Shown here one piece after another: positions 36,107 to 44,771 of a stretch of DNA of 64,000 bases (positions within the stretch are counted from its first letter, which is position 1; each line of letters starts with the position of its first letter). Location: NCBI GenBank assembly GCA_003216595.1, contig QCIQ01000001.1:159415-223414 (forward strand), read 5' to 3'. Origin of the DNA: Prochlorococcus sp. AG-402-M18. Its GTDB lineage: Bacteria; Cyanobacteriota; Cyanobacteriia; PCC-6307; Cyanobiaceae. The notes under the pieces are model-generated. The model saw nothing but the letters and a program-made list of their open reading frames with translations. It was not told where the DNA came from and ran no database searches. The position numbers were made by a program, and so were the translations under genes.

Positions 36107-36115
36107 ATGGTTTTT

Positions 36116-36301
36116 TTATCCAAGATAATTACAGTATAAGACTCCATCATTTATTATATTATTGTCATCTATTTCTAACCATTCCTTGTATTCATCATAA
36201 AGAGCTTCCCTGTTTTCCCCTTCTAAGTTAGTGAGTTGTTTAAGAGATCCGTTAAGCATTACCTCAACAGACTGTAAAGCTCCAGATTGCTTTGAAGACA
36301 T
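36116..36301 (-). CDS. Small conserved hypothetical protein (61 aa), paralog of 36541..36720
   Basis: MSSKQSGALQSVEVMLNGSLKQLTNLEGENREALYDEYKEWLEIDDNNIINDGVLYCNYLG; track places the start upstream at 36340, but the internal Met fits the paralog better. Confidence 0.6.
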   Translation of the reverse strand: MSSKQSGALQSVEVMLNGSLKQLTNLEGENREALYDEYKEWLEIDDNNIINDGVLYCNYLG

Positions 36302-36540
36302 AGAGGAAATATATTTAAAATAATAATAACCGATTAACAAATATATTTCAGTTTCATTTATTACAGAATTTATAATTAATCATTAAAACATATTAAAATA
36401 AAAAAGTATATATGCTAATCCAATATTTATGTCTCTGTAAACCGAATTAAAGAATTTAATGAAAATCTGTGGAATTACGGGATTTACTAATTAACATAGG
36501 TTTAAACAGGGATTAAAATTATAGTGATCATAAAACAGTA

Positions 36541-36720
36541 ATGAAAAAAACAAATTTAGTTAGCAGCTGTGAAGTCACAATTAATTCTGCACTTAAGAGA
36601 ATTTCAAGACTAGAAGGTAAGAACAAAAAAGCACTAGAAAGTGAATTCAGAGAATGGATAACTGCTATTAATGGTGATAATAAAAACTATGATGTCCTCT
36701 ATACAAATAAAATCAATTAA
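36541..36720 (+). CDS. Small hypothetical protein (59 aa), paralog of 36116..36301; not in supplied track
   Basis: MKKTNLVSSCEVTINSALKRISRLEGKNKKALESEFREWITAINGDNKNYDVLYTNKIN*; shares LEGxNxxALxxExxEW and DxxxxDxVLYxN. Confidence 0.6.
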   Translation: MKKTNLVSSCEVTINSALKRISRLEGKNKKALESEFREWITAINGDNKNYDVLYTNKIN

Positions 36721-37250
36721 AAATATAACCCTCGTACATTTTGCATGATATCGGATATCTTGTAACATGATATATTTATCGAGTTAGAATTTTACTTGTT
36801 GAACTTCTAAAGGCGTTAAATAGATTGACAAATGGGTTAAATATAGAAAAGAAATAATGTGTAAAAGAAGATCTTATGGCAATCAAGAATTCCCATAATC
36901 CGACAAAAATAAATCAGTTGATAATATTGATATATTTCAGTAAGATTTCAGACAATTTATATCAGATTAGTGTTCATCGTGAGTTAGTTATTAGATCAGG
37001 TTTATAAAAAGCTTTAATTTACCTTCAAGTCACTAAACACTCCTGATTACTTAATTTTTATATATAAACTATAAAATAATATAGAAGATAGATTATGAAT
37101 TCGAATGCATGAATATATATATGAATCAAATTATATTACAAAAAGATATAAATTTAAATTAAATACACTAAGGGATACTAATAAATTGATGTTTGCATAA
37201 ATCAATAAGCGAACTATAGTGAGATGATAGATTATTTAATTTAGGAAAAA

Positions 37251-37466
37251 ATGAAGTCCATATCTATTTTTCTTAAAAATATAAGGAATCTCTTACCCTA
37301 TTTAATATTAATAGCCATTTATTTCTTTTTTATAAATCTTGAGGCAAGAAAAGAAACAGGTAATAAAGTAAATAAAAACGAAAAAAACATACCATCAGTT
37401 GACAAATCAAGCTTTGAAGAGAAAAATTTTAGGATAAAAATACCTGTTATTCCATATAAAAAGTAG
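37251..37466 (+). CDS. Small single-TM hypothetical protein
   Basis: 71-aa ORF with LLPYLILIAIYFFFINLE and a charged C-terminus. Confidence 0.5.
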   Translation: MKSISIFLKNIRNLLPYLILIAIYFFFINLEARKETGNKVNKNEKNIPSVDKSSFEEKNFRIKIPVIPYKK

Positions 37467-37467
37467 A

Positions 37468-37581
37468 TTAATACCTAATATTTAATTTAGAAGTCCTCAT
37501 CTTAAATAAGTCTGTTTGTCTTTGTTCTGCTCTTTCAAGCTGTTTTTTAATTTCTAAGCAGTGTTGGCAGTTGCAAGTCAT
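37468..37581 (-). CDS. Cys-containing microprotein (37 aa); not in supplied track
   Basis: Read on minus strand: MTCNCQHCLEIKKQLERAEQRQTDLFKMRTSKLNIRY*; CxCxxC at N-terminus. Confidence 0.4.
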   Translation of the reverse strand: MTCNCQHCLEIKKQLERAEQRQTDLFKMRTSKLNIRY

Positions 37582-38202
37582 TTTATTAAGAAGAGTAATT
37601 AAGGACTAATCTTGATTGAGATGAACTAGTGATGGTTCGTTAAATTGGAATAGGTAAGTAATGTAGAATAATTTTTTTTCAATTTATCAATTATATTAAT
37701 ATTTTCAAGTATTTTTTTAGATCTGAGAATATTCATAGGTAATGATTTATATGTTGAGTTAGTTGATTTTCATTTTAATTGTATATAGCGATCTGTTGAA
37801 TCAATATCGATTTCGATAATGGACTCTTTGTACACATCCAATATGGAATTGAAATTAGATTGTAATAAGAGGATTCTGGCTTTTTAGGTTGAACTTTTTC
37901 TTGATCTATGTGTTTCAATTTAAAATGAAATGTTGAGAAGAATCACATACAGTAATAAGTGATACATAAACTATTACGATTTTTTATTTATATATATATT
38001 ATTGAATTATGATAGCAATGAGAAATTAGTATTATACCTTTTATTCGATTAACGTTTATACGTGTATTAACTATGTTTGTTTAACCTTCTATCGGTTATG
38101 TTAAAGCATTAAATTTTAACTCATCAATAATTATCTTTTTATTAAATATCATTATCAATAATCATAATGATCTAATGTGTCTTTACTACTTATATTAACT
38201 TT

Positions 38203-38394
38203 ATGAACAGAAAGTTATTTACTTCAGATAGCAAAAGTAGTCATTTTTTACTTGGCTTTGACAAAAAAGCCGCACTCGCTATCCAGAATCACTTTCGTTT
38301 AAGTAATTATCAAATGTTAGTCCTTTGCTGGCTAAAGGGATTATGGACTGGTATTTTAATTTCTCTTGCTCTCCACTATTTTATAAGTCACTAA
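38203..38394 (+). CDS. Small hypothetical membrane protein
   Basis: 63 aa: ...AIQNHFRLSNYQMLVLCWLKGLWTGILISLALHYFISH. Confidence 0.5.
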   Translation: MNRKLFTSDSKSSHFLLGFDKKAALAIQNHFRLSNYQMLVLCWLKGLWTGILISLALHYFISH

Positions 38395-38580
38395 AGATAT
38401 TCATCAAGTTTTATATCTAATATTTGTTAACCTAACTAATAAATCAAATTAAGTTTAGAAATAAATAAATTTAATAATTAATTTGTTTCTTGAAGTGTAT
38501 GATTATGAATTTAATTATAATATATATAGTCATTCAAATTTTTTTGTAATCAGCTATTAATGATAAAAATTGAGGGTTTT

Positions 38581-38736
38581 TTAAATTTTGTTTGTTTTTT
38601 CTATAACTTTTTGTGATTCAACTCTGGAGAGAGAAGCCTCAATTTGTGCCAAAACTTGCTGCAGTTCTGCAGTCTTATTCAATGAGTTCTCAGCCATGGA
38701 TCTAAGTTTTTGAAGTTCATTAGAAGCTGTTTTCAT
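38581..38736 (-). CDS. Coiled-coil microprotein (51 aa), paralog of 39191..39322; not in supplied track
   Basis: MKTASNELQKLRSMAENSLNKTAELQQVLAQIEASLSRVESQKVIEKTNKI*. Confidence 0.55.
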   Translation of the reverse strand: MKTASNELQKLRSMAENSLNKTAELQQVLAQIEASLSRVESQKVIEKTNKI

Positions 38737-38950
38737 AGAAAAGATGAATGTGTGAATTTTCCTAGATAAGGAGAGTAGAATATAAAATTTTTAATTAAGG
38801 AAGACACGAATAAATTGCCAGACATTTTCCTGATGTCAATACCTATGATCGTGATCTGTTGATAAATCTATTATTAGAATTACTTATTTATTCTTTAGAA
38901 TATATTGATTATTATTAAGCTAGAATTAAATAATAATAAAAGAGTTAGAT

Positions 38951-38982
38951 AAAAAAAGAACATTGATTTACCAATGTTCTTT
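38951..38982 (-). terminator. Rho-independent terminator-like hairpin
   Basis: 11-bp perfect stem AAAGAACATTG (38955-38965) / CAATGTTCTTT (38972-38982), 6-nt loop; the A-run at 38951-38957 gives a T-run on the minus transcript. Confidence 0.7.
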
Positions 38983-39038
38983 ATAGAGTTAAATAAACTT
39001 GATCAAGTTGAAGATCAATTAAGTAGCTAGATTAAAAT

Positions 39039-39098
39039 TTAATCGTCTTTTCCTTTCTTTTCAGAGTCTACTGGTCTAACTGGCTTAGGCAAAAGCAT
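39039..39098 (-). CDS. Candidate 19-aa peptide; not in supplied track
   Basis: MLLPKPVRPVDSEKKGKDD*, with the minus-strand terminator-like hairpin ~57 nt downstream. Confidence 0.35.
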   Translation of the reverse strand: MLLPKPVRPVDSEKKGKDD

Positions 39099-39190
39099 GA
39101 TAAAAGTTTATCTCTGTTCTTATTTATAGGTGTTTTTCAAAATACGTAAATAAGAATTATAAGTTTGAAACTTCTTGATACATGACTATT

Positions 39191-39322
39191 TTAGTTCTGT
39201 GACTTCTCATTAATCTTTTGATTTTCCTTTCTTGAGAGTGCCGCTTCGATTTGTGCTATGGCTTGTTGCAGTTGAGCATTTTTACTTATTGATTCATTGT
39301 CCTTTGCCAGATGCTTCTGCAT
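39191..39322 (-). CDS. Coiled-coil microprotein (43 aa), paralog of 38581..38736; not in supplied track
   Basis: MQKHLAKDNESISKNAQLQQAIAQIEAALSRKENQKINEKSQN*. Confidence 0.52.
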   Translation of the reverse strand: MQKHLAKDNESISKNAQLQQAIAQIEAALSRKENQKINEKSQN

Positions 39323-39477
39323 AACTTGTGATTAATTTGTCTTAGACAAAATAAATTAGCAGCTAAGCAAGCATCTTTAATTTAAATGAAGAAACCAAGA
39401 CAGTCTTTAACTAACTAAAAGCTAAAATTTGAATGTTCATGAGATATTCCATTATCTAACCTAAATGGGGAGTAACT

Positions 39478-39684
39478 ATGACAGAAGATTGGAAACCTGT
39501 AGATTCTCAAGTACTTGTTGATGCCTGGGAAGAAATTAAAGACTGTGCTGAAGGTATCCAAAAAGATCTTGCCTGCCCAGATGAGACTATTTCAAAAATG
39601 CTGAGGTCAGTAGCTGAAACTTTTGACAATAGTGTTGAAGAATTACTCGATAAAGCAGAAGAGGATTGGGAAGAAGTAAAATAG
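39478..39684 (+). CDS. Small acidic hypothetical protein
   Basis: MTEDWKPVDSQVLVDAWEEIKDCAEGIQKDLACPDETISKMLRSVAETFDNSVEELLDKAEEDWEEVK. Confidence 0.55.
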   Translation: MTEDWKPVDSQVLVDAWEEIKDCAEGIQKDLACPDETISKMLRSVAETFDNSVEELLDKAEEDWEEVK

Positions 39685-39840
39685 ATGTATCATCTAATTA
39701 TGAATCCAGATTTCTTTCAATCTCCTGATCCAGTAACTCATATTGGCCTATGGAAATCAATAGTTGGCTTATTCATAGTCTTATTCGCTACCTTTGTTGG
39801 TGTAGAAATCAGGCTAGGCAATGAAGATGAAGAACCATAA
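39685..39840 (+). CDS. Small single-TM protein (51 aa) directly following 39478..39684; not in supplied track
   Basis: MYHLIMNPDFFQSPDPVTHIGLWKSIVGLFIVLFATFVGVEIRLGNEDEEP*. Confidence 0.5.
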   Translation: MYHLIMNPDFFQSPDPVTHIGLWKSIVGLFIVLFATFVGVEIRLGNEDEEP

Positions 39841-39987
39841 TAAATTCTTAATTGTTAATTAAAAGTAATTAATTAAAAACTATATTAATTATATTATCAT
39901 CTGAATTTCTAATATAATTTTTATAATTGAATAAAAAAATTATATTTATTATATAGATAATTATTATTTTTAATCATAAAAAATATT

Positions 39988-41537: not shown

Positions 41538-41951
41538 TTATTTCAAATCGATTTGATTAAGTCGGTCTTTGAACGTTGCAGATGAAGAGTTGTCACTAGA
41601 TTTCGATGGATCAGCCAGGAATGATTGATTTTGGCGGCTAATATTATTATTTATACTTTTATTATATATAGAAAAATCTTTAGCATTGTTAAAACTTACA
41701 GTTGATTCATTACTATTGAGCTCATTACTTTTATTAGAATTATTAGATAATGAACTATTTTGTTTATTTGAAATAATTGATTCGTTTGAATTATCTAGAT
41801 TAGTATTATTGTTCTTATTAGAAGAGGCATTTTTCTTATTATTTAATGGATACTTTTTGACTTCATTTTTCAACTGATTTAATAGCTTATAATGATTTGA
41901 AGAACTATATTTTTTAACAAGAGATGGGTCCCAACTTATTGGATCATTCAT
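41538..41951 (-). CDS. Asn/Ser-rich low-complexity hypothetical protein
   Basis: Ordered-looking ends (PISWDPSLVKKYSSSNHYKLLNQLKNEVKKYPLN ... ATFKDRLNQIDLK) around an Asn/Ser/Lys-rich linker. Confidence 0.65.
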   Translation of the reverse strand: MNDPISWDPSLVKKYSSSNHYKLLNQLKNEVKKYPLNNKKNASSNKNNNTNLDNSNESIISNKQNSSLSNNSNKSNELNSNESTVSFNNAKDFSIYNKSINNNISRQNQSFLADPSKSSDNSSSATFKDRLNQIDLK

Positions 41952-42073: not shown

Positions 42074-42670
42074 ATGACGACAAACGAGTGCCTAAGGGTT
42101 GGAATGCAAGCTCCTGATTTTGCTGCTACAGCAGTCGTTGATCAAGAATTTAATGAGATATCGCTTTCTCAGTACAGGGGAAAGTATGTGGTTCTATTTT
42201 TCTATCCACTAGACTTCACATTTGTTTGCCCTACTGAGATAACAGCCTTTAGTGACAGATATAGTGATTTCAGTAGCAAGAACACTGAAGTGTTAGGTGT
42301 TTCAGTAGATAGTAAATTTACACATCTTGCTTGGATTCAAACACCAAGAAATGAGGGCGGGATTGGAGATATCAACTATCCTCTCGTGTCAGATCTTAAG
42401 CGTGAAATTTGCCAAGCTTATAATGTCTTAAATGAGGATGGAGAAGCTGATAGAGGGTTATTTATAATTAATCCAAGTGGAATAATTATGCATTCAACAA
42501 TCAATAAAGCCCCAGTTGGTCGCAACATAGATGAAACATTAAGAATTTTGCAAGCATATCAATATGTTGAATCTCACCCTGATGAAGTATGTCCTGCTGG
42601 TTGGACACCTGGTGACAAAACCATGAAAGAAGATCCTAAAGGTAGTAAGGAATACTTTTCAGCTCTATAG
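42074..42670 (+). CDS. 2-Cys peroxiredoxin
   Basis: [21 protein letters not shown] peroxidatic Cys; [25 protein letters not shown] resolving Cys. Confidence 0.95.
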
Positions 42671-42690: not shown

Positions 42691-44418
42691 TTAGGTCCTA
42701 GAAAGGTAGGCATTAAGTGATTTAATAACATATTCAGATTCAAGAGTTTCATTAACTACTAATTCTTCAACAAGATTATCCATTAAAGAAACTTTATCTG
42801 AAAGGAGTGTAATTGCATGATTAATAGCCTTATTCGCTATGGATAATATTTGCTTATCAATTTCTCTGCTTGTCTTTTGAGAATACTCTTTTGTATTTTT
42901 CAAAATATCCTTGCCGAGAAAAATTGAGTCTTTTTTTGAGTTATATGCAATAGGACCAAGATCAGAAAAACCAAATTTAGTAACCATTTGATTAGCCCAG
43001 AAATAAACATTTTCAAGGTCCTTTTGGGATCCTTGCGTAACTTCCTTAGACCCAAATACAATTATTTCAGCAGCTCTAGGACCAAGGGAAATAACAATTT
43101 TGCTATAAATATAACTGCGGGTTAAGAGACCACTATCTAAAGTCTCCTCATCAGGAGTGAAATAAGTCATTCCTGATAAATCTCCGAAAGACTTAAATAA
43201 AGAGATTTTTTCTAATTTATCTTGTGTAGGAATTAATAAGGCAACTAATGTTTTTCCAATAATCTGATATGCAATTTGTCTTTTTTTTGTGAGATCTGAA
43301 AGAGGCTTAGACAATATTCCAAATTTTGCTTTGTCGAGTGCCTTATCAAGTTCAATACTGCTAATGAGTGATTTATTTTTTCTGGCGGTATATATTGCAG
43401 CCTCGTTAAGGAGATTTTGCAAATCTGCTCCAGAAAAACCAGGCGTCTTAGTGGCCCAGTCCATAAGATTCACAGAATCGCATAATCGTTTTGTTCTGGC
43501 ATGCACAGACAAAATTTTATATCTAGATTTTCTGTCAGGAAGGGATATCTCGATCCGACGGTCAAATCTACCAGGTCTTGTTAATGCTTGATCTAGAACA
43601 TCGGGCCTATTCGTAGCAGCAATTACTATCACACCATTATTAGATTCGAATCCGTCCATCTCAGTTAGGAGTTGGTTTAGTGTTTGCTCTCTCTCATCAT
43701 TTCCTCCTCCAATCCCAGCCCCCCTCTGTCGTCCAATTGAGTCAATTTCATCAATAAAAACTATGCATGGAGATTTTGATTTGGCACTATTGAATAAATC
43801 TCTTACACGACCAGCACCAACACCTACAAACATTTCGACAAATTCCGATGCAGAAATAGAAAAGAAAGGAACATTTGCTTCTCCAGCAATTGCTCGTGCT
43901 AATAGTGTCTTACCAGTTCCTGGGGGACCGACCAATAAAACACCTTTTGGAGTTATTGCACCAAGGTCTATTAATAATTGAGGATTTCTTAAAAAGGTAA
44001 CTATTTCTTTTAATTCCTCGGATTCTTCATTTAATCCAGCCACATCATCAAAAGAGTATTTTCTCGCATCTTCGTCTCTCACTTGAGAAGAACGGGTAGA
44101 AAAACTCTGAATATTGTTTAATAACTTTGATGATCTTCTAATTAAAAATGTAAGGGATAAAACAAATAATAACGTAAGACCAGAACCAGTAATTATGTTT
44201 GCTAATCGTTGTTCAGATCTAATATCTCTTACAGTAAGAGGAACATTATATTGTTCTGATATCCTTAATATTTTCTGATCGTTAAAAAATATTGGAATTA
44301 ACTTTCTCTCTCCATTAACAAATTTAACCAAGACCTCTCTTCTATTTGGGATTAAAATAATTGATATAATTTCTCCGCTTTCAATATTCCTTAATAATTG
44401 ACTATAACTTTTACTCAT
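42691..44418 (-). CDS. FtsH-family AAA protein lacking the HEXXH zinc-protease motif
   Basis: Intact Walker A GPPGTGKT, Walker [41 protein letters not shown] position reads [15 protein letters not shown]. Confidence 0.92.
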
Positions 44419-44591: not shown

Positions 44592-44771
44592 ATGGCGGTA
44601 CCCAAGAAAAAAACCTCAAAAGGCAAGAGAAACCAAAGGCATGCTACATGGAAAAGTAAAGCTGCTATTGCTGCAGAAAAGGCTTTATCAATAGGAAAGT
44701 CTGTCCTGACTGGAAGAGCTCAAGGATTTGTTTATCCAATGAGTGAGTCTTCTGAAGAAGAATCTGATTAA
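44592..44771 (+). CDS. rpmF: 50S ribosomal protein L32; not in supplied track
   Basis: [59 protein letters not shown]. Confidence 0.93.

Follow-up and report, generated by a model that had tools for sequence, protein, structure and literature searches.

Loss of the zinc-protease motif from an FtsH1-type AAA+ protein across derived Prochlorococcus

Can an FtsH gene that lacks the HEXXH motif encode a genuine pseudoprotease in a free-living cyanobacterium, and, if so, what would such a protein do? The question is raised by an open reading frame in a 64,000-nucleotide stretch (the window) of a 1.6-Mb draft genome of Prochlorococcus. The original prediction, which set the same limits to the gene, described its product as an FtsH-family AAA protein with an erased protease motif and likened it to the FtsHi proteins of plants. 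The frame begins with ATG, and its features are listed in Table 1.

TABLE 1 Features of the FtsH1-type locus and its neighbors in the window
Feature	Position (nt)	Strand	Basis
FtsH1-type AAA+ protein without zinc-protease motif, 575 aa	42691..44418	-	ORF, profile matches, tree
FtsH_ext-like N-terminal segment, residues 4-64	44227..44409	-	weak Pfam match below cut-off; strands and helices in model
Single predicted TM segment, residues 75-93; no TM1 upstream	44140..44196	-	hydropathy
AAA ATPase core, residues 160-292; motor motifs intact (Walker A, Walker B, pore loop, SRH arginines)	43543..43941	-	Pfam, alignment columns
M41-like domain, residues 377-564, fold retained	42727..43290	-	Pfam, model, Foldseek
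QIIGK replacing HEXXH, residues 385-389	43252..43266	-	ORF translation, alignment
Asp467 retained at third zinc-ligand position; Asp or Glu across genus	43018..43020	-	alignment
Peroxiredoxin gene, neighbor kept in derived Prochlorococcus	42074..42670	+	synteny comparison
rpmF (ribosomal protein L32) start, divergent neighbor kept through family; sequence considered to 44700	44592..44700	+	synteny

The canonical Walker A, Walker B, and SRH motifs noted originally are all present, as are the pore loop (FVG) and the arginines of the SRH, and the protein matches Pfam AAA with 167 bits and Peptidase_M41 with 132 bits (cut-off, 29.9), though it stands barely above the TIGR01241 FtsH threshold (605.3 versus 600). 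In a pairwise alignment, AYQIIG falls on the AYHEAG of E. coli FtsH, such that both zinc-binding histidines and the catalytic glutamate are absent, and only the third-ligand aspartate remains, as had been claimed. FtsH proteases are recognized by HEXXH (TIGR01241 and MEROPS M41), where this protein reads QIIGK, and by a pair of N-terminal TM segments on either side of a periplasmic domain, where hydropathy detects one. Judged by its sequence, the protein is a member of the FtsH superfamily and not an FtsH protease. The genome carries four FtsH genes, and the other three (FtsH2, FtsH3, and FtsH4) keep HEXXH.

The replacement recurs in all 17 orthologues sampled within the genus, which are 72 to 86% identical, come in part from single-contig genomes, and read QIIGK or QIIGR; the amino acids are invariant save for one K-to-R change, and the codons vary synonymously. 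An orthologue of 82% identity lies on a named contig of Prochlorococcus sp. AG-402-I20, and the genus also contains a genome (G110) that we take to be Prochlorococcus NATL2A, a member of low-light clade I. An error of sequencing or assembly, or a lesion confined to one strain, is suggested by nothing beyond the derivation of the window from a single draft genome and is refuted by this recurrence, leaving it practically no chance. Close strains with an intact HEXXH, which would have undermined the original prediction, were looked for, but none had it, and the pseudoprotease reading is well supported.

A tree of 180 FtsH proteins separates FtsH4, FtsH3, FtsH2, and FtsH1-type groups and places the window protein in the last of these, adjoining FtsH2. 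Support for the FtsH1-type group is 1.0 down to an S. elongatus-like sequence and 0.68 at the node joining other cyanobacteria. The Synechocystis sequences lie outside this tree, and the FtsH1 identity is that of a published mapping, in which the fourth picocyanobacterial FtsH is homologous to Synechocystis FtsH1, although less clearly than the others are to their counterparts (PMC6300248). The divergent rpmF adjoins the gene in nearly all Cyanobiaceae loci examined, and the peroxiredoxin gene on its other side is kept through derived Prochlorococcus. Tree and synteny together identify the window gene as an FtsH1-type (type B) paralogue. Elsewhere in the window, 3.9 kb (36107 to 39987) contain neither an ORF of at least 100 amino acids on either strand nor an Rfam match, and a 137-amino-acid Asn/Ser-rich ORF on the minus strand (41538 to 41951) has no Pfam match.

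The loss extends far beyond the genus of the window. Alignment of orthologues, as originally proposed, shows the non-HEXXH state to be fixed there and in six further genera: HEXXH is absent from 49 of 49 FtsH1-type sequences sampled from all seven genera of derived Prochlorococcus, which presumably correspond to HL, LLI, LLII, LLIII, and three more. At the position of the second zinc-binding histidine, there is lysine in 26 sequences, arginine in 22, and isoleucine in 1, and the motif as a whole takes the forms QIIGK/R, NEVGR, NEVGK, NEAGK, NEIGR, NTIGR, YEIGR, HEIGK, HQIGK, HEAGR, QQVGR, RESAR, RNASK, and NEIGI. A pattern search through 400 genomes of Cyanobiaceae, accompanied by a class-wide control, detected at most three YHExGHA sites in every genome of the seven genera and four in the complete genomes of most other Cyanobiaceae genera. 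Orthologues from MIT9313-like and Synechococcus genomes retain HEIGH or HEVGH. We take the sampled genomes G152 and G095 (g18, HL) to be MED4 and MIT9301, G010 (g11) to be SS120, G078 (g40) to be MIT9211, G071 (g30) to be MIT9313, and G024 to be Synechococcus RCC307. Reading frames are intact in all sampled pseudoprotease copies, and the gene is present in every single-contig derived genome examined. No FtsH1-type gene was found in the draft assemblies G026 (g27, 99% complete, with three intact sites) and G185 (g1, 97%), reflecting either loss or an assembly gap.

The lineages lacking the motif form one clade with 100% UFBoot support in a host tree built from concatenated FtsH2, FtsH3, and FtsH4 (1861 columns, 29 genomes), a result that led us to abandon a scenario of multiple independent losses. 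The FtsH1-type gene tree, computed without the motif columns, likewise contains a single pseudoprotease clade with no intact member inside (UFBoot 79), and the clade has a support of 0.99 in the FastTree gene tree. Because this clade is nested among HEXXH-bearing MIT9313-like and Synechococcus orthologues, the simplest history suggested by topology and parsimony is one loss of the second histidine, followed by drift at the other positions.

The shortened N-terminus, also part of the original prediction, seems to have a different and older history. Hydropathy revealed no TM1 in 83 of the 86 FtsH1-type sequences from Cyanobiaceae; two of the remaining three have a TM1 candidate in read-through upstream sequence, and one could not be scored. 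In the five FtsH1-type proteins from outside the Cyanobiaceae (L218, L222, L226, L229, and L233), a signal-peptide-like N-terminus is recognizable by eye, with ALAQ, AFAQ, or GLAQ ends, although only two of the five pass the hydropathy cut-off. Most of the Cyanobiaceae FtsH1-types sampled lack such an N-terminus, whether HEXXH-bearing or not. Since the short form is common to the HEXXH-bearing picocyanobacterial orthologues, the loss of TM1 seems to predate that of the motif.

An AlphaFold2 model (mean pLDDT, 76; pTM, 0.57) is consistent with the predicted persistence of the M41 fold: the former HEXXH helix (residues 376 to 395) and the C-terminal M41 helices are modeled with fair to high confidence, and the glycine-rich AAA loop and residues 491 to 509 are poorly predicted. 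Foldseek matched the model to FtsH crystal structures, with the Ycf2-FtsHi motor lower in the list.

Comparison of substitution rates, another of the checks originally suggested, indicates purifying selection on both parts of the protein. By the NG86 method, the genus of the window has a dN/dS of 0.058 in AAA and 0.121 in M41, and the HL-type genus has values of 0.041 and 0.121; maximum-likelihood values are lower but keep the same order (0.030 and 0.048; 0.021 and 0.056, respectively). The corresponding values are 0.013 and 0.021 for FtsH3 and 0.010 and 0.026 for FtsH2. The protein is thus constrained in both domains but evolves several times faster than these paralogues, and, set against AAA, its M41 domain is little more relaxed than theirs. 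Among columns nearly invariant in HEXXH-bearing FtsHs, 10 of 32 in M41 have changed in the genus, as opposed to 8 of 117 in AAA (P = 0.0007, Fisher exact test), and the changed M41 columns include zinc-ligand positions.

Motor motifs are intact in nearly all sampled pseudoprotease copies. The exception is L153 (G003, g4), the most diverged member, which reads RNASK at the motif, GSPGTGKT, and GRFDK for GRFDR, so that drift may have reached the motor of this lineage as well. L153, L124, and L191 form long branches. The Asp of the RVRDLF segment of AAA (window residue 207, 43798 to 43800), invariant in nearly all HEXXH-bearing FtsHs, is D, E, N, S, G, or Q across the pseudoprotease clade, most of which has Lys at the position of R363. 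The acidic residue at the third ligand is kept in the genus of the window, the HL-type genus, g40, g4, and g28. A salt bridge between Lys389 and Asp467 in place of zinc was considered and rejected, there being no universal coupling: in g11, Gln, Asn, or His frequently takes the place of the acidic residue, and one g17 sequence has Gln there.

What remains is the function of a protein of this kind. Of the mechanisms offered in the original prediction, membership in a hetero-hexameric FtsH appears best supported, because the protein is an FtsH1-type paralogue and its Synechocystis counterpart works as FtsH1/3 (PMC11287208). In Synechocystis, FtsH1 (type B) and FtsH3 form an essential plasma-membrane complex that degrades regulators such as Fur, and this is the only organism for which the FtsH1/FtsH3 hetero-oligomer is known (PMC11287208). 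We regard as probable an analogous arrangement in which the second zinc-binding histidine would have changed to Arg or Lys in the ancestor of derived Prochlorococcus, and the rest of HEXXH would then have drifted differently in each lineage. The FtsH1-type protein, no longer cutting by the FtsH mechanism but with a complete AAA+ motor, would join intact FtsH3-type subunits in a hetero-hexamer; all subunits would pull and unfold the substrate, the FtsH3 subunits alone would cleave it, and the dead subunit would contribute the power of its ATPase, position in the membrane, and selection of substrates. In plant type-B subunits, inactivation of the ATPase impairs PSII repair, but inactivation of the protease does not (PMC9020784). 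Several points speak against the proposed hetero-hexamer. Although the FtsH1/3 of Synechocystis is essential, the draft assemblies G026 and G185 show no FtsH1-type gene; the protein evolves faster than FtsH2 and FtsH3, and three members stand on long branches. The picocyanobacterial "FtsH4" is also probably scarce, since it is not among the FtsH isoforms displayed as detected in ocean metaproteomes (PMC11262661).

The main rival is a homohexamer, in which six dead subunits would form a nonproteolytic unfoldase or chaperone that remodels or extracts membrane proteins. The complete set of motor motifs and the pore loop would suit such a ring, the retained M41 fold could by itself hold the lower ring together, and plant FtsHi rings do work as motors (PMC8197885); but Synechocystis FtsH1 occurs with FtsH3 rather than as a homo-oligomer (PMC11287208), and this genome encodes FtsH3, the partner, in intact form, making the homohexamer rather unlikely. 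Alternatively, protease activity might have become needless in low-nutrient streamlined genomes, with the gene lingering under relaxed constraint. Its evolution faster than that of FtsH2 and FtsH3, the drift of the motif between lineages, and its apparent absence from some draft genomes would all fit, but dN/dS values well under 1 for AAA and M41 alike, frames without lesions in every sampled copy, motor motifs in nearly all of them (L153 excepted), and the recovery of the gene from all single-contig derived genomes make decay improbable.

It is very improbable that the protein is still a protease with an altered zinc site or some other catalytic arrangement. The second histidine is gone in 49 of 49 sequences, the window protein has lost the first histidine and the glutamate as well, and the clade shares no newly conserved residue that would hint at a replacement site. 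In favor of this reading are the His-Glu half-motif retained by some members (HEIGK and HEAGR) and the third-ligand Asp retained by many. The hetero-hexamer with FtsH3 is the explanation that we prefer.

The comparison with plant and algal FtsHi holds as an analogy but not as descent. Like the Ycf2-FtsHi motor (PDB 8xku and 8xqw), to which Foldseek matched it, the window protein joins an intact AAA motor to an M41 fold with a mutated zinc motif, but its sequence is nearer to that of ordinary bacterial FtsH. Common descent with chloroplast FtsHi1/2/4/5 was rejected, since the protein is nested inside HEXXH-bearing Cyanobiaceae orthologues in trees built without plant sequences; the clade would have arisen within picocyanobacterial FtsH1, independently of plant FtsHi. 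A role as an import motor, also raised originally, found no support in this analysis. Relative to cyanobacterial FtsH1 (Synechocystis slr1390), with which it shares an FtsH1-type clade sister to FtsH2 and a single syntenic orthologue, the name following published mapping (PMC6300248, PMC11287208), the protein of derived Prochlorococcus differs by the loss of HEXXH, and that of most sampled Cyanobiaceae by the loss of TM1 or the signal-peptide-like N-terminus. Arabidopsis FtsH2 with an engineered protease-dead site (Zhang 2010, as cited in PMC9020784) is another type-B subunit that works without its protease site but needs its ATPase; that case is engineered and of the thylakoid FtsH2 type, whereas the Prochlorococcus case is natural and of the FtsH1 type.

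One FtsHi was previously observed in P. marinus SS120, in a single sentence (Mishra 2019, PMC6460958) repeated in a 2021 review (PMC8197885). It is almost certainly the g11 orthologue of G010, which reads NEAGK. That report concerned one strain, as opposed to the clade-wide extent and single origin described here; the literature searched, outside which most subscription papers lay, contained no account of the loss throughout the clade, of its having arisen once, or of the FtsH1 identity.

The presence of four ftsH genes in Prochlorococcus should not be taken to mean four proteases, and bacteria appear to have a pseudoprotease of an origin independent from that of plant FtsHi. Synechocystis FtsH1/3 adjusts the responses to iron, phosphate, nitrogen, and carbon through the degradation of regulators, and why it is essential is counted among the unanswered questions (PMC11287208). 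If most Prochlorococcus FtsH1 cannot cut, either the FtsH3 subunits alone do so or what makes FtsH1 essential is a mechanical function, and the natural series HEIGH, HEIGK, HEAGR, NEVGR, and QIIGK makes these roles testable. We give an even chance to the broader reading that FtsH1/3 in derived Prochlorococcus is a half-dead machine, with a dedicated noncleaving FtsH1-type AAA+ subunit bearing Lys or Arg at the zinc ligand and kept through the HL and LLI-LLIII radiation. If true, this would represent a natural, lineage-wide subunit specialization in bacterial FtsH, and in most Prochlorococcus lineages, a protease complex that is essential in other cyanobacteria may operate with half of its subunits not cutting.
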